From positions 38,953 to 102,952 of the forward strand of contig JAFRLH010000071.1 in the NCBI GenBank assembly GCA_017431345.1: a stretch of 64,000 bases of DNA. Direction: 5' to 3'. Below the pieces are notes generated by a model, which saw only the letters and a program-made list of their open reading frames with translations, was not told where the DNA came from and did not search any database. Below, piece by piece: positions 36,898 to 60,980 of this stretch. The DNA is from Lachnospiraceae bacterium. GTDB lineage: Bacteria > Bacillota > Clostridia > Lachnospirales > Lachnospiraceae. Position numbers and translations under genes: made by a program. The first letter of the stretch is position 1, and each line of letters opens with the position of its first letter.

Positions 36898-40815
<3,918 letters not shown>

Positions 40816-48766: not shown

Positions 48767-48795
48767 AACGCTCCGGCAGCCCCGGAGCGTTTTTC
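48767..48795 (+). terminator. Terminator after the amidase gene
   Basis: AACGCTCCGG (48767-48776) pairs with CCGGAGCGTT (48782-48791) and is followed by TTTT. It isolates the catabolic unit downstream. Confidence 0.9.
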
Positions 48796-48960: not shown

Positions 48961-49800
48961 ATGGCAAGAAAATTTTCACTCGCTTATCTGACACTTCCGG
49001 GCGTAGATCCGGTAACACAGTTCAAGATCGCAAAGGAAGTCGGCTATGACACGGTCAGCCTTCGTACGATCCCTATGCATCTTCCCGGAGAGCCGGAATT
49101 CCTTCCGCAGAAGGATGCAAAGCTTTTTGAAGATATCAAGAACGCAATGAAAGAATATGACCTGCCCATCATGGATATCGAGCTTGCCCGTATCCGCCCT
49201 GACCTGGACATCGAAGAGTATAAGCCCGCATTTGAATGCGCAGCCAAGCTCGGTGCTACGGATGTTCTCGGCAGTGTCTGGACAAGAGACAAAGCTTGGT
49301 ACACCGAGACAGCCGGCAAGGTAGCGGATATGGCTAAGGAATTCGGCCTCTGCTACAATATCGAGTTCCTGCCCTGGGCTGGTGTCAGGAATCTGCAGGA
49401 GGACATCACCCTTGTCGATGCCCTTCACAGAGACAACGTATTCGTAATGGTCGATACGCTTCATGCAGGCCGCGCAGGCGTAACTGCTGAAGAGCTTGCA
49501 CGTACCGGCAGCAAATATTTCCGTTTCATCCATCTGTGCGACGGCCCTGCAGGCCCCGGCGGAGATCCCGTCCTTGACAACATCAAGGATGACCTGATGC
49601 TCTTTACCGCCAGAGAAGGCCGTATGTATCCCGGAGACGGCGTCATGGATATCGCAGGTATGGTCAAGGCTATGCCCGGCATCCCGCTTTCCATCGAGCT
49701 TCCGAACCTCAAGGAGATCGAAGCACGCGGATGGGAAGGCCATGCGAGAATGTGCCTTGAGAAAGCAAAAGCATACTTTGCGGAGAACGGAGTGGAATAA
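48961..49800 (+). CDS. Xylose-isomerase-like TIM-barrel protein (IolE/dehydratase-like)
   Basis: A 279-residue TIM barrel of the sugar phosphate isomerase/epimerase superfamily, which includes IolE (2-keto-myo-inositol dehydratase) and 3-dehydroshikimate dehydratase. Four likely metal ligands are in place: Glu135 (NIEF), Asp165 (VMVDTLH), His191 (FIHLCD) and Glu246 (SIELPN). It opens the five-gene catabolic unit with its own promoter; codon use is like rpoBC. In context I infer that it removes water from a dehydrogenated cyclic polyol (3-dehydroquinate) to give a 1,2-dione. Isomerase or epimerase activity remains possible. Confidence 0.8.
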   Translation: MARKFSLAYLTLPGVDPVTQFKIAKEVGYDTVSLRTIPMHLPGEPEFLPQKDAKLFEDIKNAMKEYDLPIMDIELARIRPDLDIEEYKPAFECAAKLGATDVLGSVWTRDKAWYTETAGKVADMAKEFGLCYNIEFLPWAGVRNLQEDITLVDALHRDNVFVMVDTLHAGRAGVTAEELARTGSKYFRFIHLCDGPAGPGGDPVLDNIKDDLMLFTAREGRMYPGDGVMDIAGMVKAMPGIPLSIELPNLKEIEARGWEGHARMCLEKAKAYFAENGVE

Positions 49801-49827
49801 TAAAAAGCAGCGGACTGATCCCGCTTC

Positions 49828-49862
49828 ATGCCCTCCCGGATTTGTACCTGCCGGGAGGGCAT
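49828..49862 (+). terminator. Strong hairpin after the TIM-barrel gene (terminator or attenuator)
   Basis: ATGCCCTCCCGG (49828-49839) pairs perfectly with CCGGGAGGGCAT (49851-49862). The T-tract is weak, so partial read-through into the next gene is likely. Confidence 0.6.
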
Positions 49863-49968
49863 TTACGTTCATGCGGTCCATGCAGTAAATATATACAACA
49901 AAAATCTGTTATAGAATAAAGTTAATGATGACATATAAAAAGAGTATGCCAATTATAATAAAAACAGA

Positions 49969-49997
49969 TTGACCGCCTTATAAAATCAGTGTATAAT
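49969..49997 (+). promoter_or_regulatory. Near-consensus promoter for the aldehyde dehydrogenase gene
   Basis: TTGACC (49969-49974) and TATAAT (49992-49997) are 17 bases apart. The predicted start of transcription falls near 50004, just before the palindrome at 50016-50036. The rest of the 309-base gap (49801-50109) holds the hairpin at 49828 and AT-rich DNA. Confidence 0.8.
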
Positions 49998-50015
49998 TTC
50001 ATTGTACGAAAGATT

Positions 50016-50036
50016 TGATTTCACAGTATGAAATCA
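50016..50036. promoter_or_regulatory. Candidate operator 2: perfect palindrome at the start of transcription
   Basis: GATTTCACAGTATGAAATC (50017-50035) has perfect 7-bp arms around CAGTA, extended by one T/A pair. It lies just downstream of the -10 box, where a bound protein would block transcription. A related site lies at 48808-48826. Size and symmetry fit IclR-family operators; the regulator is inferred. Confidence 0.6.
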
Positions 50037-50109
50037 GTCACATGTTTTCAATATGAAAAAGGAGTCAGAACCCCTTTTTCCCCATTTATTTTTAAGGAGG
50101 AACCCCACT

Positions 50110-51621
50110 ATGAGCAGAATGAGTGACATGACAGTACCTTATTCCAAGCTGACCGAAGATCAGATCGCTGATATCGAAGCGTGTTTCGAGCGTGCCGACA
50201 AAGCACAGCTTGAGTTCGAGAAATGGAATCAGGAAGACATTGATCGCGCTATCCGTTCCATCGCACAGAAAGTTGCAAACTCCAAGACCTTCCATGAGCT
50301 GGTCGAGATGGGTATCGTAGAGAGCCGTTTCGGTGATCCGATCTCCCGTGAGAACAAGAGATTCAAAATCCGCGGTATCCTCCGTGACTGCCTGCGTGAG
50401 AAATCCGTCGGCAAGATCGGCGAGTATCCTGAAAGAAAGATCGAGCTGTATGCAAAGCCCGTCGGCATCATCGCCTGCGTTATCCCTGCTACCAACCCCG
50501 ATCTGACTCCTGCAGGAAACGCCATCTATGCTCTGAAGGCACGTAATGCCATCATCTTCAGCCCCCATCCCAGAACGGCCGGCACTTCCAAGAAGACCAT
50601 CGACCTGATGCGTGAAGGCCTTGCCCGTGTAGGCGCTCCCCTTGATCTGATCCAGATCCTCGGAACCAACGGCTGCAAGATCAACCGTCAGATCTCCGAA
50701 GCTCTTATGACCAAGTGCGATCTTGTTATCGCAACAGGCGGACAGGGCGTTGTACGCCGTTCCTACAGCTCCGGCACACCTGCATTCGGCGTAGGCGCCG
50801 GCAATGCTACCATGATCTGGGATGAGACCGCGATCAAGGATCTGCATCATGCAGCTGACAACACCATGCGTTCCAAGACTTCTGACTTCGGTTCCGGATG
50901 CTCCGCTGACGGAAACGTTATCATCCATGACAGCATCTGGGATGAGTCCATCAAGGCTCTGCAGGAAGTTGGCGGTTATGTAATGACAGAAGAAGAGCAG
51001 GACAAGATGCGTCGTGCAATGTGGGATGAAGAGATCCACAGACTGTCCGATACCGTTGCTCTTTCCGCACTGGATATGGCTAAGAAGGCCGGATTCGAAG
51101 TTCCTGAGACCACCCGTTTCCTGATCGCTTCCCATAACACCGGCGTATACGAGAGCGGAGAAGCCGGAATCTGGGCAAGAGAGAAACTTTCCACAGTCCT
51201 GGCTGTACACAAATATTCAGGTGAGTTCCAGAACGCGATCGACGCGATCATGGAGATCCATGACAAGTGCGGCGGCAAGGGCCATTCCGTAGGTATCTTC
51301 TCCTTCGACGATGATCATATCCACAGACTGGCTATGGTAGCCCGCGTCGGACGTATCATGGTCCGTCAGCCTCAGTCCAAGGCGAACTCCGGTTCCATGA
51401 ACAACGGTATGCCTATGACCTCCTCCATCGGCTGCGGCACATGGGGCGGCAATGCTACTTCCGAGAACGTGCATCTGCATCACTACATGAACGTCACATG
51501 GGTATCCCGTGAGTACGAGACTCCCGACTGGCAGACAGATGAAGAGCTCTTTGGTGAGTTCTATGATCCGGAGCTGGAGAAGGTTCAGTATTCTGCATAC
51601 AACTCCAACGACGCTATCTGA
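50110..51621 (+). CDS. CoA-acylating aldehyde dehydrogenase
   Basis: A 503-residue aldehyde dehydrogenase of the acylating branch (EutE, AdhE N-domain, sulfoacetaldehyde dehydrogenase type). KPVGIIACVIPATNP near residue 116 is the branch signature, and the catalytic Cys264 lies in FGSGCSADG. It should convert an aldehyde, CoA and NAD to an acyl-CoA. The ATG at 50110 follows AAGGAGGA. Codon use is highly biased, like rpoB, so the enzyme is abundant. In the proposed pathway it turns the ring-opened semialdehyde into homocitryl-CoA. Confidence 0.87.
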   Translation: MSRMSDMTVPYSKLTEDQIADIEACFERADKAQLEFEKWNQEDIDRAIRSIAQKVANSKTFHELVEMGIVESRFGDPISRENKRFKIRGILRDCLREKSVGKIGEYPERKIELYAKPVGIIACVIPATNPDLTPAGNAIYALKARNAIIFSPHPRTAGTSKKTIDLMREGLARVGAPLDLIQILGTNGCKINRQISEALMTKCDLVIATGGQGVVRRSYSSGTPAFGVGAGNATMIWDETAIKDLHHAADNTMRSKTSDFGSGCSADGNVIIHDSIWDESIKALQEVGGYVMTEEEQDKMRRAMWDEEIHRLSDTVALSALDMAKKAGFEVPETTRFLIASHNTGVYESGEAGIWAREKLSTVLAVHKYSGEFQNAIDAIMEIHDKCGGKGHSVGIFSFDDDHIHRLAMVARVGRIMVRQPQSKANSGSMNNGMPMTSSIGCGTWGGNATSENVHLHHYMNVTWVSREYETPDWQTDEELFGEFYDPELEKVQYSAYNSNDAI

Positions 51622-51641
51622 TCGAGAATGAATAAGGCCAA

Positions 51642-51662
51642 GGCTGTCCGATTCGGGCAGCC
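51642..51662 (+). other. Intercistronic hairpin
   Basis: GGCTGTCCG (51642-51650) pairs with CGGGCAGCC (51654-51662) with one G-U pair. It has no T-run. It probably stabilises or processes the mRNA between the two genes. Confidence 0.55.
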
Positions 51663-51720
51663 CGGCCCGTTTATAAAACAAATCAGAATCAATCAAACTA
51701 AAAAAGGAGATCTTTCGTCT

Positions 51721-53634
51721 ATGAAAAGATTAGTTTCCGACGGCATCGTCGACTATCTGGAGCGCAGAGGTGTTGAGTATGTATTTGGTCTTTGCGGTCA
51801 TACTGTTATCGCCATGCTGGATGCATTCAGCCGTTCCACGAAGCTGAGATATGTCAGTGTCCGCCATGAGCAGATCGCCGCTACAGCAGCTGACGGTTAT
51901 GCACGTATTGCCCATAAGGCGGGTGTCATGATCTGCCACCTTGGCCCGGGCCTTACCAATGCGACCACAGGTGTTGCCAATGCCGCATTTGACTCCATCC
52001 CCATGGTAGTCATCGCCGGTGATGTTCCCAGCTATTATTATGGAAAGCATCCCCATCAGGAAGTGAACATGCATTGCGACGGTTCCCAGTATGATATCTA
52101 CAAGCCCTTCGTAAAGAGAGCCTGGAGAATTGACCGTCCCGAAGCATTCCCGGAAGTACTGGACAAGGCATTCCGTCTTGCAGAGTCCGGCCGTCCCGGC
52201 CCGGTCCTGATCTCTGTTCCCATGGATATGTTCTCCCGTGAGATCGAGAACGATGTATGGGAGAGGACCTATATGGATTCTCATGAGACCATCAAGCCCG
52301 CCCTTGATCCTGCAACTGCAAAGAAGATCGCGCAGACCCTGATCGAGGCAAAGAACCCGCTGATCCATGCCGGCGGCGGCGTCCTGCTTGCACAGGCCAG
52401 CAAAGAGCTGGAAGCACTGGTAGACTTCCTTGACATTCCGGTATCCCGTACGCTTATGGGCCAGGGCTGCATCCCGGATACGCATCCGCTGCTCCTTGGA
52501 CAGACCGGTTTCTGGGGATTTGAGCTTACCCATCAGAAGACGCTTACAGCCGACCATATCCTGATCCTCGGATCCCGTATGGCAGAGGCTGACAGCTCCT
52601 CCTGGTACAAGGGCGTAACATTCGATCAGAGCGTGACCAAGTTCATGCAGATCGATATCGATCCTACCGAGATCGGCCGCAACTATCCTGTAGAGATCGG
52701 TGCGATCGCTGACCTGAAACATGCCCTTGCACAGATCCTTGAAGCTGCGAAGGAAATCTGCCCGAATGGTATTGATCGTCCCGAGCTTCGCAAGGAGATC
52801 ACTGAGTACAAGGCCAACTTCAAGAAGCAGAATCAGCCGATCTGCGACGATGACCGCTTCCCGATGACCCCTCAGCGCATCCTTCGCGACTGCAAGGCCA
52901 TCCTTCCGGAAGATGCCCTGATCTTCACCGATGTAGGCTGGAACAAGAACGGTATGGCGCAGCAGTATGATATCACCATCCCCGGAACCATCAACCATCC
53001 TTCAGGACTGGCTACCATGGGATTCGGCGCCGGTGCTATCCTCGGTGCAAAGCTTGCGGCTCCTGACAAGGTCGTTATCACCCTTACCGGCGACGGCGGC
53101 TTCGGTGCTGCGAACCCCTGCGTCATGGCTACCGCTGTTGAAGCAGGCATCCCTGTCATCTGGGTCGTCATGAACAACTCCGCATTCGGAACGATCGCAG
53201 GTCTTGAAGGACTGCATTACAAGAATGAGAGAGAGAACTGCCGTCTGCATCTTGGAACCGAGTTCAAGATCCGTCCTGCCGAGATGGGCAATACCATGGG
53301 CGGCGAAGGAACCTTCCAGCAGGCATGGGAATCCTATTCACCCGACTGGGCAGCAGTTGCACGTGCTTACGGCGTAGACGCTGTCAAGATCCAGAGCGCT
53401 GCCGAGTTCGAAGATGCTCTGAAGCAGGCTGTGGAAGCCGTACAGAACGGCAAGCCTTTCCTGATCGACGCTCCGATGGAGAACATCGCTGTTCCTACCC
53501 CCGGCGTATGGAATATCAACGATATCTACACGCATAAGGAGAACGTCAGCATCGAGAACGGCCGTCTGAAATTCGCGGATGAAATGGGCGGAAAGACTGT
53601 TGAAGTCGTTCGTTCACAGGCTGCTGATGCCTGA
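51721..53634 (+). CDS. Thiamine-diphosphate-dependent enzyme (IolD / acetolactate synthase superfamily)
   Basis: A 637-residue ThDP enzyme with three domains. The activating Glu50 lies in VRHEQIAA, and the ThDP motif runs from GDGG (457) to NN (485-486). The length is near that of IolD, the ring-opening cyclohexane-dione hydrolase of inositol breakdown (about 640), and longer than acetolactate synthases (about 560). The ATG at 51721 follows AAAGGAG; a start 31 codons earlier overlaps the hairpin. I infer that it hydrolyses a C-C bond of a cyclic 1,2-dione, giving a semialdehyde acid. A decarboxylase or carboligase role cannot be excluded. Confidence 0.83.
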   Translation: MKRLVSDGIVDYLERRGVEYVFGLCGHTVIAMLDAFSRSTKLRYVSVRHEQIAATAADGYARIAHKAGVMICHLGPGLTNATTGVANAAFDSIPMVVIAGDVPSYYYGKHPHQEVNMHCDGSQYDIYKPFVKRAWRIDRPEAFPEVLDKAFRLAESGRPGPVLISVPMDMFSREIENDVWERTYMDSHETIKPALDPATAKKIAQTLIEAKNPLIHAGGGVLLAQASKELEALVDFLDIPVSRTLMGQGCIPDTHPLLLGQTGFWGFELTHQKTLTADHILILGSRMAEADSSSWYKGVTFDQSVTKFMQIDIDPTEIGRNYPVEIGAIADLKHALAQILEAAKEICPNGIDRPELRKEITEYKANFKKQNQPICDDDRFPMTPQRILRDCKAILPEDALIFTDVGWNKNGMAQQYDITIPGTINHPSGLATMGFGAGAILGAKLAAPDKVVITLTGDGGFGAANPCVMATAVEAGIPVIWVVMNNSAFGTIAGLEGLHYKNERENCRLHLGTEFKIRPAEMGNTMGGEGTFQQAWESYSPDWAAVARAYGVDAVKIQSAAEFEDALKQAVEAVQNGKPFLIDAPMENIAVPTPGVWNINDIYTHKENVSIENGRLKFADEMGGKTVEVVRSQAADA

Positions 53635-53666
53635 TCGCATGATCCTAAATCAATAAGTTAATCGAG

Positions 53667-53706
53667 GCGCATGCCGGATGTTCCTGTTCGGGCATTCGGC
53701 ATGCGC
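53667..53706 (+). other. Intercistronic hairpin next to a ribosome binding site
   Basis: Fourteen base pairs (53667-53680 with 53693-53706, one G-U) close a 12-base loop. The stem ends seven bases before the AGGAG of the next gene. It is likely to protect or separate mRNA segments. Confidence 0.65.
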
Positions 53707-53724
53707 ATTTACAGGAGAATTAGA

Positions 53725-54681
53725 ATGGCATTTGATTATGTTAAGAAAGTCCGTATCTGCGAAGTAGGTCTTCGTGACGGTATCCAGAATGAAAAAGGCG
53801 CTATCCTTACCGTAGAGGATAAGGTAGAACTGTTAAGAGGAATGATCGATGCAGGATACAAGGTAATCGAAGTCGGTTCCTTCATGCATCCCGTAAAGGT
53901 CCCTCAGATGGCAAATACTGACGAAGTCTACAAGGCAATGCAGGCTTATGATATCCCCGATGATGTCGAGCTTCGCGCACTGATCCCCAACAAGCGCGGT
54001 GTAGACCGTGCGGTAGCCTGCGGCTGCAAGAAGGTCAAGCTGAATGTTTCCGCTTCCCTGGGACATAACCTTGCCAACCTGAACCGCACTCCCGCAGAAT
54101 CCGTTGCCGGATTTGCTGAGGCAGTGGATGCTGCCAAGTCCAATGGCCTTGAGATCTCCGGATCTATTTCCATGGCTTACGGTTCACCCTGGGATGACGA
54201 TATCCCGATCGATGAAGTCAAGAAGATCATCGAAGCTTACATGGCAGTAGGCATCACCGAGATCTCCCTGTCGGATGCTTCCGGTATGGCGTATCCTTCC
54301 CAGGTCTACAATATCTGCACGGAAGTCCGCAAAGCTTATCCCGACAATACATGGTGGCTGCACTTCCATAACACCAGAGGACTTGCGATCGCCAACATTA
54401 TCGCCGGTATGCAGGCAGGCATGAATCAGTTTGACGGTTCCCTGTCAGGCGTAGGCGGATGCCCGTTCGTTCCCGGCGCAGCCGGAAACGTGGCTACCGA
54501 AGATGTTATCCACTGCCTGGATGAAATGGGTGTAGAGACCGGCATCGACAATGACAAGGTCATCGCTCTTTCCCGCCGTATGGTCGAGATGATCGGACAT
54601 GCAGCAGACGGTTATGTACTGAAAGCCGGCCAGTCCAAGGATCTGAAACTGCCGCTGCCTGTACGTCAGCCGAAGAAATAA
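53725..54681 (+). CDS. HMG-CoA-lyase-family (DRE-TIM) C-C lyase
   Basis: A 318-residue DRE-TIM metallolyase. Arg17-Asp18 are in LRDGIQ and the metal ligands His213 and His215 in WLHFHNT. The loop Cys246 is in GGCPF and Asn255 in GAAGNVATED; all match the catalytic set of HMG-CoA lyase. The family cleaves 3-hydroxy-3-substituted acyl-CoA to acetyl-CoA plus a carbonyl acid. Leucine-breakdown genes are absent. Homocitryl-CoA, made by the neighbouring enzymes in my model, has the same 3-hydroxy-3-carboxyl arrangement and would yield acetyl-CoA and 2-oxoglutarate. Confidence 0.88.
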   Translation: MAFDYVKKVRICEVGLRDGIQNEKGAILTVEDKVELLRGMIDAGYKVIEVGSFMHPVKVPQMANTDEVYKAMQAYDIPDDVELRALIPNKRGVDRAVACGCKKVKLNVSASLGHNLANLNRTPAESVAGFAEAVDAAKSNGLEISGSISMAYGSPWDDDIPIDEVKKIIEAYMAVGITEISLSDASGMAYPSQVYNICTEVRKAYPDNTWWLHFHNTRGLAIANIIAGMQAGMNQFDGSLSGVGGCPFVPGAAGNVATEDVIHCLDEMGVETGIDNDKVIALSRRMVEMIGHAADGYVLKAGQSKDLKLPLPVRQPKK

Positions 54682-54709
54682 GCGTATAAGCTCCGGTGAT
54701 GCGGACACA

Positions 54710-54826
54710 CAGAGGGGAGTGCCTGCACTCACCTCTGCGTGGACATAGCGCCGGGCAGATATCATACATACAATTCAATCTCTACCGGGTCGTCCCGGTA
54801 AAAATAAAGTGCACGGTAAACCGTGC
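54710..54826 (+). other. Three tandem hairpins in the 161-base gap before the dehydrogenase gene
   Basis: Stems are 54710-54721/54726-54737 (12 bp, one mismatch), 54783-54789/54794-54800 (TACCGGG/CCCGGTA) and 54811-54817/54820-54826 (GCACGGT/ACCGTGC). The last abuts the GGAAAGAGG ribosome binding site. No long T-run follows any of them. The gap holds no other feature I can identify. Confidence 0.55.
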
Positions 54827-54842
54827 GGAAAGAGGTATCATT

Positions 54843-55709
54843 ATGGGATCCAAACTTATTGCTCTTCTTGGCACTCCTCTGGGACAGTCTTTCTCTCCCC
54901 GTATGCAGAACGAAGCTTATGCTTCCATGGGATTTGACGCTCATTATTTCCCGCTGGAGACCAACAATGAGCTGATCGGCAACAATATTGCCAACATCAA
55001 GAAAGATAACAGCTATGCCGGTTTTGCAGTAACCAAGCCCAATAAGGAATTCGCTGTTCAGTTCATGGATGAGATGGACGGACTTGCAGAGAAGATGGGA
55101 ACCATCAACACTGTCGTACGCAGCGCTGACGGCACACTGAAGGGCTACAACACCGACGGTTTCGGAGCGACCAAGTCTCTGGAGCTGGAAGGCGTAAAGT
55201 TCGATGAGACCACTTTCTTCGTCTGGGGCGCAGGCGGCACCGGAAAATCCGTTTGCTTCACCATGGCTGATCTCGGCGCAAAGAAGATGTTCATCAGCTC
55301 CCGTTCCGAGAAGTGCGAGACCCTGGCAAAGGATCTGAACGAGAAGTTCGGAAGAGAAGTTGCTGTAGCGATCCGTACTGCTGATGAAGAGGCTGTAAAG
55401 GCTGCTGTTGCAGAGTCTGATGTTCTGATGAACCTGTCCGGTCTTGGCATGAGAGGCCATGAGGGCGAGACCCCCATCGCCAAAGAGTGCATCAAGCCCG
55501 AGCATGTCTGCTTCGATGCTACCTACAATCCCCTGAAGACCCAGTTCCTGCTGGATGCTGAGGAGAAGGGCTGCAAGATCATCAACGGCCTTGGAATGGT
55601 CATTTATCAGGGCGCACGCCAGATCGAACTGTGGGCCGGCGTTGACGAAGCTCCCGTAGAGCAGATGTTCAAGACCATCGATCAGATCGTCGCTGAAATG
55701 AACAAATAA
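54843..55709 (+). CDS. Shikimate/quinate dehydrogenase family protein
   Basis: A 288-residue AroE/YdiB family enzyme. The carboxylate-binding serines Ser16 and Ser18 are in GQSFSP, catalytic Lys68 in VTKPNKE and Asp105 in GYNTDGFG; the nucleotide loop is GAGGTGKS near 130. The family oxidises shikimate or quinate at C3 with NAD(P). No other aromatic-synthesis gene is near, and it lies in a highly expressed catabolic unit, so I read it as the catabolic entry enzyme (quinate to 3-dehydroquinate), not AroE of biosynthesis. Cofactor preference is not clear. Confidence 0.85.
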   Translation: MGSKLIALLGTPLGQSFSPRMQNEAYASMGFDAHYFPLETNNELIGNNIANIKKDNSYAGFAVTKPNKEFAVQFMDEMDGLAEKMGTINTVVRSADGTLKGYNTDGFGATKSLELEGVKFDETTFFVWGAGGTGKSVCFTMADLGAKKMFISSRSEKCETLAKDLNEKFGREVAVAIRTADEEAVKAAVAESDVLMNLSGLGMRGHEGETPIAKECIKPEHVCFDATYNPLKTQFLLDAEEKGCKIINGLGMVIYQGARQIELWAGVDEAPVEQMFKTIDQIVAEMNK

Positions 55710-55724
55710 TTGATTCTCTTACCG

Positions 55725-55751
55725 CCCCCGCGGTTCTCCGCGGGGGTTTTT
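55725..55751 (+). terminator. Terminator closing the five-gene unit
   Basis: CCCCCGCGG (55725-55733) pairs with CCGCGGGGG (55738-55746) over TTCT, followed by five T. Confidence 0.93.
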
Positions 55752-55769: not shown

Positions 55770-56525
55770 ATGGAAAGACAGAATTCACCGACAAGATCCG
55801 TAGAAAGAGCACTTGATATCCTGGAGTGCTTTATGGATAAAGATGTGATGATACTTCTTGAGATCGCGGAAAAGACCGGTCTTTCATCGAGCACCGCACT
55901 GAGGATCCTGCAGGCTCTTGCGGAGCATGATTTTATTGTAAAGAATACGCAGGATAAGACATACCGTCTCGGAAACAAGATCCTCTGGCTTGCAGAACGC
56001 ATGTCCAGGGAATCGCATGAGGAATTGAGAAAGACGGCATATATGTATATGCTGGCAATGAATGAGAAATATAACGAGGATGTCCGCCTGTTCGTTCCGG
56101 ACGGACACTCCAAGCTTTGCATAGAATCGATTGAATCCAGAAGAGAACTGCGGCAGGTCGTACTGGTCGGCACCAGGCATGATCTGATCCGCGGCGCTGC
56201 AGGCAAGATCATGATCGCGTATATGAACGACAGTGACAGACGCAGGCTGATCGAAGATGAATCCTTATTCAAAATGTATGATTCGGTAAAGGAAGCCGGA
56301 TATGCAATAAGCAACGGAGAAAGAGAGCAGGGCCTGTTCGGGATTGCTGTGCCTGTTACCGATGCGGAAGGCCGGCTGGTCGCAGCGGTGTCCCTGTCGG
56401 GGCCCTCTGTAAGATTCAGCAGTGATGATCTTAAGGAACGCATCAATGCCATGACAGAGATGGGAAAGAAGATCTCCGCTGCCTGGCAGAGGAGAAATCA
56501 GGAAGTACAGGAGATGGGAGCATGA
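55770..56525 (+). CDS. IclR family transcriptional regulator
   Basis: A 251-residue regulator. Residues 5-70 form the winged helix: SVERALDILECFM, TGLSSSTALRILQAL, then YRLG. The C-terminal effector domain contains GAAGKIMIAYM and a hydrophobic end with AVSLSGPS. IclR proteins typically control breakdown of aromatic and hydroaromatic acids. Its ATG follows AGGAGG and comes 19 bases after the terminator of the five-gene unit, so it depends on read-through or a promoter inside the preceding gene. The palindromes at 48808 and 50016 are its likely targets. Confidence 0.9.
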   Translation: MERQNSPTRSVERALDILECFMDKDVMILLEIAEKTGLSSSTALRILQALAEHDFIVKNTQDKTYRLGNKILWLAERMSRESHEELRKTAYMYMLAMNEKYNEDVRLFVPDGHSKLCIESIESRRELRQVVLVGTRHDLIRGAAGKIMIAYMNDSDRRRLIEDESLFKMYDSVKEAGYAISNGEREQGLFGIAVPVTDAEGRLVAAVSLSGPSVRFSSDDLKERINAMTEMGKKISAAWQRRNQEVQEMGA

Positions 56526-56865: not shown

Positions 56866-56892
56866 GCCCAAATAGTCCCGGAGGTTGTGAAG

Positions 56893-57816
56893 ATGAATGC
56901 AGAGGACAGAATCAGGAAAGTAGCGATCATAGGAATCGGTATTCAGGGGTCGATGCTGGCGTTTCGGAATTCGTACCACGGAAAACTGGTGTGCGGATAC
57001 AGCAGGACAGAAAAATCCGGAGAGATCTGCCGGCAGAAGATCCTTCAGTGGGCAGATTATTATATGGAACAGGGGAAACTCACGGCAGCCGGAAAAGAAG
57101 AACTGCTCGGAAGAATAACCTATGCGTCTTCCCTGGAAAAGTGCGCAGAGGATGCGGATCTGGTCATTGAGTGTGTTCCCGAAAAACTGGCCCTGAAGCA
57201 GGAACTCTTCGGACAGCTTGATAAAGTATGCCCCGAAAAAACACTGTTCAGCTCCAATACCTCTTCCCTGCTGATGAGCGAGATCTGCGTTCACTGCAGT
57301 GAAGCCAGAAAGAAAAAGTCTTTCCAGAGCGATCATGATGATCCGGTCAGGAACAGCCATGTCGAACTGATGTGGAATGCGTATACGGCGGAAGAGACAA
57401 AAGCGGCTGCGATGGCCCATTATCACACGCTGGGATTTGATCCCATCGTCACGGAGAAAGAAGTTAAAGGATATTCCATAAACCGTGTATGGAGAGCGGT
57501 GAAGCGAGAATGTCTGTGGCTGTGGGCGAACGGCTACTGTACGCCGGGGGATTTCGACCGCGGCTGGAAGGAAGAATGGGAAAGCAAAGTCGGGCCGTTC
57601 GAACTGATGGATCTGATCGGGCTGGATACGATCTATAATATTGAGATGTCCTATTTTGAAGCCAGCGGAGAGGAAAGGGACAGACCGCCGAAGGCGCTTA
57701 AAGAGATGGTGGATAAAGGCATTCTCGGCATGAAATCGGGAAGCGGATTCTATAAAGGCTATAATACGTTGGCTGGAAATCTTGATGCCGGGGAAAAGAA
57801 ACATGAAGCTGACTGA
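56893..57816 (+). CDS. Divergent 3-hydroxyacyl-CoA dehydrogenase-like oxidoreductase
   Basis: A 307-residue two-domain dehydrogenase. The dinucleotide loop reads GIGIQG near residue 14. VIECVPEKLALKQELF and SSNTSSLLMSEI match the 3HCDH family. His148 aligns with the catalytic His, but the usual HFFNP motif is replaced by HDDPV. The C-terminal part ends with the family's GSGFYKGY. Relatives include L-carnitine and L-gulonate 3-dehydrogenases, which oxidise free 3-hydroxy acids, so a non-CoA substrate is plausible. GGAGG precedes the ATG at 56893. It overlaps the aconitase X gene by 14 bases. Confidence 0.78.
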   Translation: MNAEDRIRKVAIIGIGIQGSMLAFRNSYHGKLVCGYSRTEKSGEICRQKILQWADYYMEQGKLTAAGKEELLGRITYASSLEKCAEDADLVIECVPEKLALKQELFGQLDKVCPEKTLFSSNTSSLLMSEICVHCSEARKKKSFQSDHDDPVRNSHVELMWNAYTAEETKAAAMAHYHTLGFDPIVTEKEVKGYSINRVWRAVKRECLWLWANGYCTPGDFDRGWKEEWESKVGPFELMDLIGLDTIYNIEMSYFEASGEERDRPPKALKEMVDKGILGMKSGSGFYKGYNTLAGNLDAGEKKHEAD

Positions 57817-59035
57817 AGAACAGCGGGAAATGCTTGCGGGAAAATACGGAAAAGGCGCGGCGATGGCCATGCGTATTCAGTGCGCGGTAGGAGAAGGCTT
57901 TGAAGCGGAGCGGATGGTACCCGTAAGCCGTGTCCATATTTCACTCAGCGCCCAGAACGCGGATATCTGGTTTACTGAAAAGATGACGGAAGCCGGTGCC
58001 GCAGCAAGAGTCATTCCTACTGTCAATCCCGGATACTGTGTGAAGTATTTTCGGGAAAAAGGGTGGCTTGCGGAAGAGGATTCCATAAATATGCGCCGCA
58101 CCGAAGCCGCCTACACGAAGCTTGGCGCGAATATGACGCTCAGCTGTACGCCATATCTTTCCGACAACAGACCCGGGTTCGGAGAGATCTGCGCTTTTTC
58201 GGAGACCAGCGTGACTGTGTTCGCGAATTCCGTCCTGGGGGCAAGAACGAACAGGGAGAGCGCCATGAGCGCAGCGTGCGCGGCCATTACAGGCTTTGTT
58301 CCGGAATACGGTATGCTTCTTCCGGAGAACAGGCTGGGAACGGTCCTGGTAAAAGTGTCCGCAAGGGTCGACAGCGCAATCAGGTTTGCCATGCTGGGAC
58401 TCTGCGGGAAAAAGATCGGACGCGGTATACCTGTCTTTACGGGGCTTCCGGATGAGATCGATACCGAGTCGCTCATAGCGCTCGGAGCATCCCTGAATAT
58501 ATCCGGTTCTTATGATATGTTCCATATACCCGGAGTAACGCCCGAAGCGCCGGATGAGAAGGCTGCTTTCGGAGGAAGAGCACCGGTCAGAACGGTAGAA
58601 CTGACCGAACAGGATATGAATGAAGCGTTTGCATTGTATTCCCATGAGCCCGGTGATTCCGTCGATTATGTGATCCTGGGATGTCCGCATTATACCTGTG
58701 AGCAGGTCAGAACAGCGGCAGAATTTCTGCGGGGGAAAAAGGCGCGCGTTCCTGTAATGATCCTGACCTCGCGTACTGTGATTGCCGAAGCGGAAAAGAG
58801 CGGGATCAAAGAGATGCTGGAGGAAGCGGGGGCAGATCTGATCCCGGATACATGCGTTGATGAAAAGTACTGTTTTCAATGCCTGAAAGGAAAGAACGGC
58901 GCCACTGATTCTCCGAAGGCGATCTATTATATGGAAAACTTCGGGATGAGCATGGCAGTTCGGGATATGAAGACCTGCCTTTCGTGGGCAGTCTCCGGAA
59001 AGCCTGACAGCAGCACGCCGATGGCGGCTATGTAA
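57803..59035 (+). CDS. Aconitase X catalytic (large) subunit
   Basis: A 410-residue protein of the AcnX family (formerly DUF521). Conserved elements are SCTPY near residue 115, ANSVLGARTNRES near 141, LGCPHYTCEQ near 292 and DTCVDEKYCF near 350; Cys115, Cys294 and Cys351 are the likely iron-sulfur ligands. Known AcnX enzymes dehydrate cis-3-hydroxyproline or mevalonate 5-phosphate. The latter is unlikely because the cell carries dxs. The ATG at 57803 follows GGGGAAAAG. Its small subunit is fused to the next protein. Confidence 0.9.
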   Translation: MKLTEEQREMLAGKYGKGAAMAMRIQCAVGEGFEAERMVPVSRVHISLSAQNADIWFTEKMTEAGAAARVIPTVNPGYCVKYFREKGWLAEEDSINMRRTEAAYTKLGANMTLSCTPYLSDNRPGFGEICAFSETSVTVFANSVLGARTNRESAMSAACAAITGFVPEYGMLLPENRLGTVLVKVSARVDSAIRFAMLGLCGKKIGRGIPVFTGLPDEIDTESLIALGASLNISGSYDMFHIPGVTPEAPDEKAAFGGRAPVRTVELTEQDMNEAFALYSHEPGDSVDYVILGCPHYTCEQVRTAAEFLRGKKARVPVMILTSRTVIAEAEKSGIKEMLEEAGADLIPDTCVDEKYCFQCLKGKNGATDSPKAIYYMENFGMSMAVRDMKTCLSWAVSGKPDSSTPMAAM

Positions 59036-59048
59036 AAGGAGGAACATC

Positions 59049-60980
59049 ATGAGGGAGCTCGTTTTTGGCTGCAGGAAGATATCTCCCGGCCATGTAACGG
59101 CAGAGGCCGTGTGTTCCAAAGAGGAGATCCTGTTCTATCATGCGGATTTCGAAGCAGGGATCATTACCGAAAAAGGACATGATCTGGAAGGGAAGAGCAT
59201 ATCCGGAAAGATCGTAGTATTTCCCGGAGGCAAAGGCAGTTCAGTGGTACAGGCAGACGGTCTGTACAATCTGGTGCAGAACAGCAAAGCGCCTGTCGGA
59301 TTTATCGTCCGGTTCCTGGACACCGTGCTTGTGTCTACAGCTGTTGTCATGGAAATACCGATGGTATGGAAAGTGGACGACAGTTTCTGGTCAGAGATAC
59401 AGGACGGTGATCTTGTAAAGCTTGACGCTGATCATGAATGCGTGACCATCATCAGACAGCAGGAGGAAAAAATGAAAGACTTGATACTTACCGGAAGCGG
59501 TCTTACGGTGGAAGACGTATACCAGGTCGCCTATGAGGGAAGAAAGGTAAAGATCGATGAAGCTGCCTATGCCAGGCTGGCAAGGGGAAGGGCGGTCATG
59601 ACAGGACTTGCGGAAGGCGGCAAAGCGATTTACGGCCTTAACCGCGGCGTAGGCTGGAACAAAGACAGGGGAATGGAAGAAAGCGCGCTTGCCGCGTATA
59701 ACAGGAACCTGATCAGAACACACTGCCTGGGAGCAGGACCCTGGCATGAAGACGCCGAGGTAAGGGCTATGATGTGCATCCGGCTTAACCAGATCCTGCT
59801 GGGGGCCTGCTGCGCGACGGATGAACTGGCGGATCTGTACAGGGATTTCCTGAATCACGGCATTACTCCGCAGGTGCCTTCAAGAGGCTCCATGGGAGAT
59901 GATGATATCGCGACGCTGTCCCATATCGGGATGGCTTTTATCGGGGAAGCCAATGTGAGTTATCAGGGGAAGATCGTCAGCAGCAAAGAAGCCATGGAAG
60001 CGGAAGGGATCGGGCGTTACGTCATGGAACTGAAGGACGCGCATACAGTGATCCTTTCAAACGCCCAGGGAGAAGCCATGACAGCGCTTCTTGTGAAAGA
60101 GACCGAAAAGCTTCTCGATATGTCTCAGCTGATCTACTGCCTGGACTATGAAGGACTTAACGGAAATGTGGAACAGATGCGGGAAGAAGTCAACGCCTTA
60201 AGAGGTCTTCCCGGGCAGATCAAATGTGCCGCACAGTGCAGAAAGTTCCTTGCCGGCAGCTATCTGTATGAGCCGGATGAGGACCGCGCGCTGCAGGATG
60301 CACTGTCCTTCCGGGACGGTTTCTGCGTAACGGGAGCAGTATGGGATACGCTGGGGTTTGTCCGCAGATTCCTTGACATCCAGCTTAATTCGACATCAGA
60401 CAATCCCTGTGTCCTTCCGGATTCCGAGGAGACTTCGGTCACTGCTAATTTTGAGACACCGACGCTTGCTTTCGGTGTGGAGATGCTTGCATGCGCGCTC
60501 GCGACCTGGTCAAAGACGATCGTTCACAGAATGCTGCGCATGACAGATCCGGCGTTCACGCATCTCACAAGATATCTGGCGCCGTGGGATAACGCAAGCC
60601 TCGGATTTGCCACGATCATGAATACTTATGCCAACCTGGATGCCGAGAATCGCCATCTGGCCATGCCTTCTTCGATGGATTTCTATTCTCTCGAAGGCGG
60701 GATAGAAGACAGGGGTACAAATCTTCCCTATGCCGCGCAGAAAGCCATGCGTATTCTTGATAATATAAGGCGGCTGACGGGCATTGAAGCGCTTTATGCT
60801 GCACAGGCTGTGGATCTGCGCAGACAGAAAAAGGATATCCGTCTGGGCGAATATACGGAAAAAGTGTATAACACTATCCGTGATTCCATTCCCTTTTTCG
60901 GGGAAGACCGGAATATGTATCTTGAAATGGAAGCAGCTTATGCGCTGATCCGCTCGGAGAAACTCCTGGAGATCATTTGA
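59049..60980 (+). CDS. Fusion of aconitase X swivel subunit with an ammonia-lyase-like domain lacking the MIO triad
   Basis: A 643-residue two-part protein. Residues 1-135 form the AcnX small-subunit swivel domain (DUF126): GHDLEGKSISGKIVVFPGGK then GSS. Residues about 143-643 form a HAL/PAL-like fold with YGLNRGVG (195-202), NRNLIRTH (218-225), NSTSDNP (447-453) and an all-helical remainder. The MIO-forming Ala-Ser-Gly is missing: GSxGASGDLAPL becomes GSMGDDDIATL at 280-290, one residue shorter. So classical MIO-dependent deamination is not expected. No hutU or hutI is near. AAGGAGG precedes the ATG. Confidence 0.85.
   Translation: MRELVFGCRKISPGHVTAEAVCSKEEILFYHADFEAGIITEKGHDLEGKSISGKIVVFPGGKGSSVVQADGLYNLVQNSKAPVGFIVRFLDTVLVSTAVVMEIPMVWKVDDSFWSEIQDGDLVKLDADHECVTIIRQQEEKMKDLILTGSGLTVEDVYQVAYEGRKVKIDEAAYARLARGRAVMTGLAEGGKAIYGLNRGVGWNKDRGMEESALAAYNRNLIRTHCLGAGPWHEDAEVRAMMCIRLNQILLGACCATDELADLYRDFLNHGITPQVPSRGSMGDDDIATLSHIGMAFIGEANVSYQGKIVSSKEAMEAEGIGRYVMELKDAHTVILSNAQGEAMTALLVKETEKLLDMSQLIYCLDYEGLNGNVEQMREEVNALRGLPGQIKCAAQCRKFLAGSYLYEPDEDRALQDALSFRDGFCVTGAVWDTLGFVRRFLDIQLNSTSDNPCVLPDSEETSVTANFETPTLAFGVEMLACALATWSKTIVHRMLRMTDPAFTHLTRYLAPWDNASLGFATIMNTYANLDAENRHLAMPSSMDFYSLEGGIEDRGTNLPYAAQKAMRILDNIRRLTGIEALYAAQAVDLRRQKKDIRLGEYTEKVYNTIRDSIPFFGEDRNMYLEMEAAYALIRSEKLLEII

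Follow-up and report, generated by a model that had tools for sequence, protein, structure and literature searches.

In the catabolism of myo-inositol, the TIM-barrel dehydratase IolE removes water next to a ketone, and the thiamine diphosphate (ThDP)-dependent hydrolase IolD then opens the resulting cyclic 1,2-dione. Hydrolysis of a cyclic dione by a ThDP enzyme is also known from cyclohexane-1,2-dione hydrolase (CDH; 2pgn). In the classical catabolism of quinate and shikimate, quinate dehydrogenase, 3-dehydroquinate dehydratase, and 3-dehydroshikimate dehydratase lead to protocatechuate, whose ring is cleaved in an oxygen-dependent reaction. The stretch of 64,000 nucleotides analyzed here (the window; positions 38,953 to 102,952 of contig JAFRLH010000071.1 of Lachnospiraceae bacterium, GCA_017431345.1) harbors five genes that likely represent a conserved unit for hydroaromatic acids, whose logic would resemble the opening of the inositol ring, but with members and an ending that are new. 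The best single explanation of the unit, which we consider reasonably probable, is a catabolism of quinate by hydrolytic opening of the hydroaromatic ring in five steps. The families, the common strand, and the location that the original prediction had given for the five genes were confirmed by the open reading frames and by Pfam:

48961–49800, forward strand: xylose-isomerase-like TIM-barrel protein, candidate dehydratase, related to IolI and 3-dehydroshikimate dehydratases (Pfam AP_endonuc_2)
50053–51621 (start uncertain, 50053 or 50110), forward strand: aldehyde dehydrogenase, predicted to be acylating and CoA-dependent (Pfam Aldedh)
51721–53634, forward strand: ThDP enzyme, proposed hydrolase of a 3,4-dione ring (three ThDP domains, Pfam)
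53725–54681, forward strand: acyl-CoA lyase of the 3-hydroxy-3-methylglutaryl-CoA (HMG-CoA) lyase family, proposed homocitryl-CoA lyase (Pfam HMGL-like, NCBIfam PRK05692)
54843–55709, forward strand: enzyme of the shikimate/quinate dehydrogenase family, proposed quinate 3-dehydrogenase (Pfam Shikimate_dh_N and SDH_C)

Gene starts were chosen by alignment with relatives and lie slightly off the longest frames; the ThDP gene probably starts at 51721 and not at 51628, and the lyase gene at about 53725.

In the proposed route, the dehydrogenase would oxidize quinate to 3-dehydroquinate, from which the metal-dependent TIM-barrel enzyme would strip the hydrogen at C4 and the hydroxyl at C5, yielding the 3,4-dione of a deoxy ring. 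The ThDP enzyme would then split the bond between C3 and C4 with water, leaving an aldehyde at the former C3 and a carboxylate at the former C4. The acylating aldehyde dehydrogenase would convert the aldehyde to homocitryl-CoA, which the HMG-CoA-lyase-type enzyme would cleave to acetyl-CoA and 2-oxoglutarate. The net reaction, balanced by hand, would be quinate + CoA + 2 NAD+ -> acetyl-CoA + 2-oxoglutarate + 2 NADH + 2 H+. Shikimate would be used as well, via a 3-dehydroquinate dehydratase encoded elsewhere in the genome or, in other species, within the cluster. The route would share its entry chemistry and part of its protein families with the classical pathway but would pass through no aromatic intermediate and open the ring without oxygen. 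It would have the dehydration by a TIM barrel and the subsequent ThDP-dependent hydrolysis in common with myo-inositol catabolism but act on a different ring and end in acetyl-CoA and 2-oxoglutarate; the dione proposed here would differ from the substrate of CDH in bearing a carboxylate and a tertiary alcohol. The argument draws on the genes themselves, their conservation and co-occurrence, the retention of sequence motifs, the 3-dehydroquinate dehydratase that some clusters include, and an alternative lyase ending; the latter two are the strongest arguments for the route, and neither is encoded in the window.

Among 61 genomes comprising that of the window and its relatives, ThDP matches of at least 74% identity are present in eight, namely in seven of the 11 members of the window's genus (three of these loci are cut by contig ends) and in one other member of the order. 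A separate scan of named genomes yielded 191 confirmed relatives of the ThDP enzyme, of which the 80 best (64–91% identical) form the basis of all locus counts, with partner genes counted by tblastn; the loci are akin to one another, and some come from the same genome (e.g., L024/L025 and L045/L048). They stem from Lachnospiraceae, Oscillospiraceae, other Clostridia, Acidaminococcus, Synergistaceae, and one metagenome-assembled genome (MAG) named Spirochaetes. Acidaminococcus intestini DSM 21505, [Clostridium] aminophilum DSM 10710, and Anaerosphaera aminiphila DSM 21120 are examples of cluster-bearing isolates with a sequenced genome. The ThDP gene is accompanied by the gene of the aldehyde dehydrogenase in 59 loci, of the TIM barrel in 47, of the lyase in 42 (including L050, whose match is doubtful, with 23% identity and no loop cysteine), and of the dehydrogenase in 38; all four partners are present in 25 loci and at least three in 39. 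Where 7 kb are available on both sides (34 loci), the corresponding numbers are 17 and 23, and 31 have at least one partner; missing partners are partly due to contig ends. In the two genomes represented by L024/L025 and L045/L048, one of the two ThDP copies has partners, and the other has fewer or none in view. The recurrence of the partners, as well as that of a transporter, agrees with the clustering expected in the original prediction: the large subunit of a TRAP transporter is encoded in 28 of the 80 loci (checked by Pfam in L053; an additional locus, L011, has all three subunits). Further neighbors are regulators of the LysR (41/80) and IclR (6/80) types.

The genes of the ThDP enzyme, the TIM barrel, the lyase, and the dehydrogenase also tend to be present together, as seen in 64 genomes of the genus that includes a Lawsonibacter sp. 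MAG (L077/G061). A ThDP ortholog (E <= 1e-150) is present in 19 of them. The TIM barrel occurs in 15 genomes, 13 of which also have the ThDP gene (Fisher p 1.7e-7); the lyase (>500 bits) in 17, sharing 16 (p 3.2e-11); and the dehydrogenase (>500 bits) in 16, sharing 14 (p 2.4e-8). All four genes are found in 12 genomes. The 500-bit line was drawn after a gap in the scores had been seen, and the Fisher test ignores relatedness; the counts leave out three lyase rows (G105, 269 bits; G075, 253 bits; and G129, a fragment of 85 residues with 139 bits) and all dehydrogenase rows below 500 bits. By these lines, three ThDP-bearing genomes (G093, G099, and G129, the one with the lyase fragment) have none of the other three genes. 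In several genomes (e.g., G062, G101, and G106), the genes lie on separate contigs, where the clustering may be looser or split by the assembly. Because of the conservation counts and this co-occurrence, the grouping of the five genes is beyond chance.

The best clue to the substrate is provided by type I 3-dehydroquinate dehydratase, which is encoded in 10 of the 80 loci (tblastn; three checked by Pfam). In eight of these (L032, L036, L040, L043, L049, L059, L066, and L087), its gene is less than 400 bases from a partner gene, which in L036 is a second, AroE-like dehydrogenase; in L043, the dehydratase gene is on the other strand. With random placement in genomes of 3 Mb, only 0.4 to 1.2 such loci are expected (Poisson p ~7e-7 or less).

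The originally predicted end of the route, a cleavage of homocitryl-CoA to acetyl-CoA and 2-oxoglutarate, is supported by clusters from other phyla. On a plasmid of Azoarcus sp. KH32C, an ortholog of the ThDP enzyme (57%), a dehydrogenase, and a 3-dehydroquinate dehydratase are encoded in one run with a class III CoA-transferase and a citryl-CoA lyase, whose score of 460.7 bits exceeds the cut-off of 261. In the same run, two separate genes encode a QuiC-like TIM barrel and the dioxygenase-like half belonging to it. A closer TIM-barrel relative (46% to the TIM barrel of L066) is encoded at a distance of some 13 kb from the ThDP gene; the cluster is flanked by an IclR-type regulator. In Streptomyces sp. 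NBC_01450 and Nonomuraea gerenzanensis, a ThDP homolog (47%) has homologs of the CoA-transferase (57–58%) and the citryl-CoA lyase (52–55%) in its vicinity, together with an IclR-type regulator (tblastn), PQQ-type dehydrogenases, members of the shikimate dehydrogenase family, and permeases of the branched-chain ABC type (one checked by Pfam). The aldehyde dehydrogenase of Nonomuraea is by its best models an ordinary, non-acylating one, and that near the ThDP gene of Streptomyces was recognized by Pfam; a QuiC-like protein is encoded nearby in Nonomuraea. The pair of acylating dehydrogenase and HMG-CoA-lyase-type enzyme in the window thus seems to be exchanged for a combination of dehydrogenase, CoA-transferase, and a lyase of the citrate synthase type, which would require a free acid as intermediate. 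Both modules would suit a citrate-like 3-hydroxy-3-carboxyacyl-CoA, and homocitryl-CoA is the product to be expected from the proposed ring opening.

The same enzyme logic could in principle serve another cyclitol or hydroaromatic carboxylate, with quinate not being the main substrate. Such a reading is conceivable, albeit unlikely. It finds some support in the plasmids of Aminobacter, Methylobacterium, and Antarctobacter (L145, L146, and L147), all three of which combine a ThDP enzyme containing a GxxGH motif (34–35% identical) with an aldehyde dehydrogenase and, in part, with a TIM barrel (L145 and L146) and a Gfo/Idh-type oxidoreductase (L145 and L147), so that the scheme does not seem to be confined to a single ring. 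Moreover, a Gfo/Idh/MocA oxidoreductase is encoded in seven of the 80 loci, including some clostridial clusters. However, the 3-dehydroquinate dehydratase in the 10 loci and in the run of Azoarcus speaks against a different ring acid, as do the several subfamilies of shikimate/quinate dehydrogenases that accompany the ThDP gene, and the presence of either HMG-CoA lyase or citryl-CoA lyase suits a 3-hydroxy-3-carboxyacyl-CoA. Further genes of the three alphaproteobacterial loci encode a cupin and oxidoreductases and, in L147, a 3-dehydroquinate dehydratase of type II; these loci resemble a sister system that would open the ring of another cyclic acid.

The ThDP enzyme had been predicted to be similar to IolD, which is correct with respect to its length and a shared histidine but not with respect to its family score. 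With 209.6 bits in the NCBIfam model for IolD (TIGR04377), it remains far below the cut-off of 715 and is surpassed by another ThDP paralog of the same genome (254.3 bits); an identification as IolD was therefore rejected. In fact, none of the best 25 NCBIfam models for the ThDP enzyme, the aldehyde dehydrogenase, and the dehydrogenase reaches its cut-off. The shared residue is H27, which follows GxxG in the N-terminal domain and is present in 79 of the 80 loci (the sequence of the remaining one, L026, is cut before this position). It is a feature noted in the present analysis and not part of a published definition of IolD, and it recurs in the homologs from Azoarcus, Streptomyces, and Nonomuraea, in five from alphaproteobacteria, and in the two IolD proteins compared. 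Residues 6–40 of the ThDP enzyme align without gaps to residues 7–41 of CDH, placing residue 28 of the latter, which we take to be the active-site residue His28, opposite H27. In this region, 4d5g, presumably the His28 variant of CDH, scores 4.6 bits lower than 2pgn, as if the matching residue were gone. Five further residues (H73, H112, W265, N408, and K409) are retained in all of the 80 loci that reach them and in the three distant homologs from Azoarcus, Streptomyces, and Nonomuraea; among the comparison proteins, the only ones that share any of them are AlsS (H112), Xsc (N408), and MdlC (H73). On account of the shared H27, the enzyme is proposed to act as a ring hydrolase.

Among solved structures, BbmA and acetolactate synthases (ALS) come closest to the ThDP enzyme, and glyoxylate carboligase and pyruvate oxidase also score higher than CDH. 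Together with the lyase, which exceeds the cut-off of an HMG-CoA lyase model, these matches would be compatible with a decarboxylase or carboligase of the acetolactate synthase type and a lyase whose substrates resemble HMG-CoA and belong to branched-chain or amino acid metabolism. We nevertheless consider this very improbable. The position of H27 is occupied by G, A, S, D, A, and S in ALS, AlsS, Xsc, POX, Gcl, and MdlC (one protein each), with glycine also in the alignments of both acetolactate synthase and pyruvate oxidase; two other long ThDP paralogs are encoded in the same genome; and the association with the dehydrogenase and 3-dehydroquinate dehydratase would be left unexplained.

The TIM barrel did not bear out the similarity to IolE that had been predicted: no NCBIfam family, including the models for IolE and QuiC, matched at E <= 0.001. 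A profile of 46 sequences yielded 20 matches, among them IolI, Lmo2234, 5hmq, and AsbF (3dx5). The window protein and 45 of the 46 copies in the loci (the last one is cut short) have the residues E135, D165, H191, and E246. All four match identical residues in the alignment with IolI, where they presumably bind the metal; Lmo2234 differs at the histidine. The similarity to QuiC and AsbF is one of profiles, to 5hmq and 3dx5, with no curated model assigning the protein to either family; 5hmq is labelled 4-hydroxyphenylpyruvate dioxygenase in its file, and we take its matched N-terminal half to be a 3-dehydroshikimate dehydratase of the QuiC type. On its own substrate, 3-dehydroshikimate dehydratase removes the C5 hydroxyl next to the C3 ketone. 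By analogy, the same loss from 3-dehydroquinate would halt at the dione because C1 is saturated. The TIM barrel is a candidate for the dehydratase of the route. In L019, L021, L023, and L025, the TIM barrel encoded at this position is only 37–38% identical to that of the window (75% in L022), while the other core proteins are 64–91% identical and the neighbors conserved; the dehydratase gene therefore seems to have been swapped.

The profile matches to 5hmq and AsbF, and the QuiC-like proteins in the clusters of Azoarcus and Nonomuraea, would also fit a 3-dehydroshikimate dehydratase that forms protocatechuate in the classical pathway, with the other enzymes serving another purpose. There is little chance that this is the case: among the recurrent neighbors inspected, no protocatechuate-handling gene was recognized (they were not searched with models for such genes), and the ThDP enzyme, the aldehyde dehydrogenase, and the lyase would be left without a role, even though the ThDP enzyme and the lyase co-occur with the TIM barrel.

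The best NCBIfam models for the aldehyde dehydrogenase are SauS (386.7 bits, cut-off 600) and an AdhE-type model (311.2 bits, cut-off 951), and no equivalog is reached; the enzyme appears to be related to the SauS, AdhE, or EutE type and likely acts on another substrate. Its Cys264 is conserved in all 57 copies in the loci. The lyase belongs to the HMG-CoA lyase family by both model score (PRK05692, a subfamily model; 294.1 bits vs. 246) and catalytic residues. R17, D18, H213, and H215 are present in all 42 copies and C246 in 41, corresponding to the catalytic Arg-Asp, His-x-His, and loop Cys motifs of HMG-CoA lyase (1ydo and 6nds), from which it would differ in its proposed substrate, homocitryl-CoA. 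The alignments (A2–A6, with 46, 39, 39, 35, and 33 rows) represent a subset of the locus copies, with A5 lacking the second dehydrogenase subfamily; the residue counts given here refer to all retained locus copies and not to these alignments.

The dehydrogenase is a member of the shikimate/quinate dehydrogenase family, with a substrate domain above the cut-off of Shikimate_dh_N and the binding residues T64, K68, N89, D105, and Q256 in all 40 copies; it shares the motifs MQN and PNK with the quinate/shikimate dehydrogenase 3t4e. The cut-offs of the equivalog models for biosynthetic AroE are not reached (the best two are 198.4 vs. 252 bits and 194.9 vs. 200.2 bits). A second, AroE-like subfamily replaces the first in L032, L053, and L063, and both are present in L036 and L046. 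The occurrence of different branches of the family at the same place argues for a hydroaromatic acid as substrate.

Several findings weigh against the quinate route. All of its substrates and all of its intermediates are predicted. None of the partner genes is in view at 10 of the 80 loci, and many loci of Synergistaceae, including several with long flanks, show only the genes of the ThDP enzyme and the aldehyde dehydrogenase. Although a common reaction is assumed for the TIM barrels of the clusters, their identity to that of the window ranges from 36 to 85%, and the family scores place the ThDP enzyme closer to acetolactate synthase than to either IolD or CDH. In 70 of the 80 loci (many of them short), no 3-dehydroquinate dehydratase is visible, and the unit in the window lacks this enzyme, too. 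Its type I form is also present in G001 and G005, two members of the window's genus without the ThDP gene, and is therefore at least partly biosynthetic; as a marker inside this genus, it was discarded as not discriminating. The alternative ending has gaps of its own: no aldehyde dehydrogenase is annotated in the run of Azoarcus (whose gene table is incomplete), the PQQ-type dehydrogenases of the actinomycetes pass no specific model, and the lyase is not cleanly replaced in Streptomyces, where an HMGL-like gene (36% to that of the window) and a second CoA-transferase are located 6–9 kb from the ThDP gene. The QuiC-like proteins encoded in Azoarcus and Nonomuraea could belong to the classical pathway.

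A further objection concerns the dehydrogenase, which is the sole Shikimate_dh_N protein found in six of the seven cluster-bearing genomes of the window's genus, i.e., that of the window (G000) and five others; five of these six (not G008) also encode chorismate synthase. In the seventh (G002), where the cluster is cut by a contig end, no Shikimate_dh_N protein was found. G001 has the cluster-type dehydrogenase alone at the same place (L137), with the same upstream neighbors (uppP and an amidase-like gene); the genes of the TIM barrel, aldehyde dehydrogenase, ThDP enzyme, and lyase are not seen there, and a search of the genome revealed no close ThDP ortholog. G005, which also lacks a ThDP ortholog, has a dehydrogenase–shikimate kinase fusion instead. 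Conceivably, the dehydrogenase is simply the biosynthetic AroE of these genomes and lies by chance next to an unrelated catabolic unit of four genes. This is improbable, because a member of the dehydrogenase family is present in 38 of the 80 loci, and because 14 of the 16 dehydrogenase-bearing genomes in the genus of the Lawsonibacter MAG also have the ThDP gene, five of which (G061, G071, G101, G121, and G122) carry further, weaker dehydrogenase homologs. Moreover, both uses are compatible, and a biosynthetic role would itself imply activity with shikimate. As the sole Shikimate_dh_N protein in the presence of chorismate synthase, the dehydrogenase may serve both quinate use and biosynthesis in the window's genus, and the claim of exactly one step per enzyme may not hold in this case. 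As a whole, the predicted route draws support from the clustering, the conserved histidine, and its ending, whereas the low IolD score, the missing match to IolE, and the doubt about the one-step claim do not support the form in which it had been worded.

The following features lie at the borders of the unit or within it:

48767–48791, upstream of the unit: terminator-like stem of 10 pairs, scored on the reverse strand; by eye, a T run is present also on the forward strand
49969–49997, forward strand: promoter-like site between the TIM-barrel and aldehyde dehydrogenase genes (11/12, consensus match only)
55724–55747, forward strand: terminator-like stem of 10 pairs (nine G-C) followed by a T run, downstream of the dehydrogenase gene
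55770–56525, forward strand: gene of an IclR-type regulator downstream of the unit, perhaps its regulator (Pfam IclR_C and HTH_IclR)

In line with the terminators that had been predicted to bound the unit, terminator-like hairpins are present on both sides, but in the window as a whole, such sites are near chance (15 vs. 11.7 +/- 3.0 in shuffled sequences), as are promoter-like sites (14 vs. 11.8 +/- 3.4). Because the best promoter-like site lies between the first two genes, the unit may give rise to two transcripts. Relatives of the IclR regulator are encoded near the unit in L016, L019, L020, L021, and L025. Further downstream (56887–60980), Pfam identified a 3-hydroxyacyl-CoA-dehydrogenase-like gene, the gene of an aconitase X large subunit, and a fusion of an aconitase X swivel domain with a histidine/aromatic ammonia-lyase domain, which is to our knowledge unusual. 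The first two genes are kept in L016, where only the swivel part of the fusion (137 residues) aligns and is directly followed by the end of a pepP-like gene; the lyase part is seemingly absent there. A search of a phage collection gave identities of no more than about 33% among the matches listed and was not used. 2-Hydroxyglutaryl-CoA dehydratase (PF06050) was considered as a marker of 2-oxoglutarate fermentation but dropped as too weak: it was found in eight of 10 genomes of chosen loci, in neither of the Lawsonibacter MAGs, and also in two of 14 controls, including E. coli.

More broadly, the chances seem even that these clusters represent a widespread route that degrades quinate and shikimate without aromatic intermediates. 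At its core would stand ring hydrolases of a new ThDP clade, and it would have two endings, one with acylating aldehyde dehydrogenase and HMG-CoA-lyase-type enzyme in gut Clostridia, Synergistota, and Acidaminococcus, the other with CoA-transferase and citryl-CoA lyase in Azoarcus and actinomycetes. If true, the route would explain the use of quinate by fermenting bacteria without aromatic intermediates. Quinate, an acid made by plants, is plentiful in food and fodder (e.g., in coffee and fruit), where it occurs both free and in chlorogenic acid. Its direct conversion to acetyl-CoA and 2-oxoglutarate would fit the metabolism of the glutamate fermenters Acidaminococcus (L080) and [Clostridium] symbiosum (L071).

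In the excerpts of the open-access literature on quinate that were retrieved, there is no assignment of this gene set, and no paper naming Azoarcus KH32C was among the matches listed for this strain with quinate or shikimate. According to PMC11602726, coffee, plasma quinic acid, and Lawsonibacter asaccharolyticus are linked, and the resolution of the transcripts is too low to confirm single genes; quinic acid is higher and not lower in carriers of L. asaccharolyticus, which is unexpected for a simple degrader. If the proposed route is true, it might contribute to this link. The ThDP gene is present in 19 of the 64 genomes of the genus of the Lawsonibacter sp. MAG.

Genes for an oxygen-independent ring opening would allow quinate use to be read from metagenomes and would reduce an old physiological question to five proteins. 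The two interchangeable endings, if true, would represent a clear case of convergent pathway assembly.

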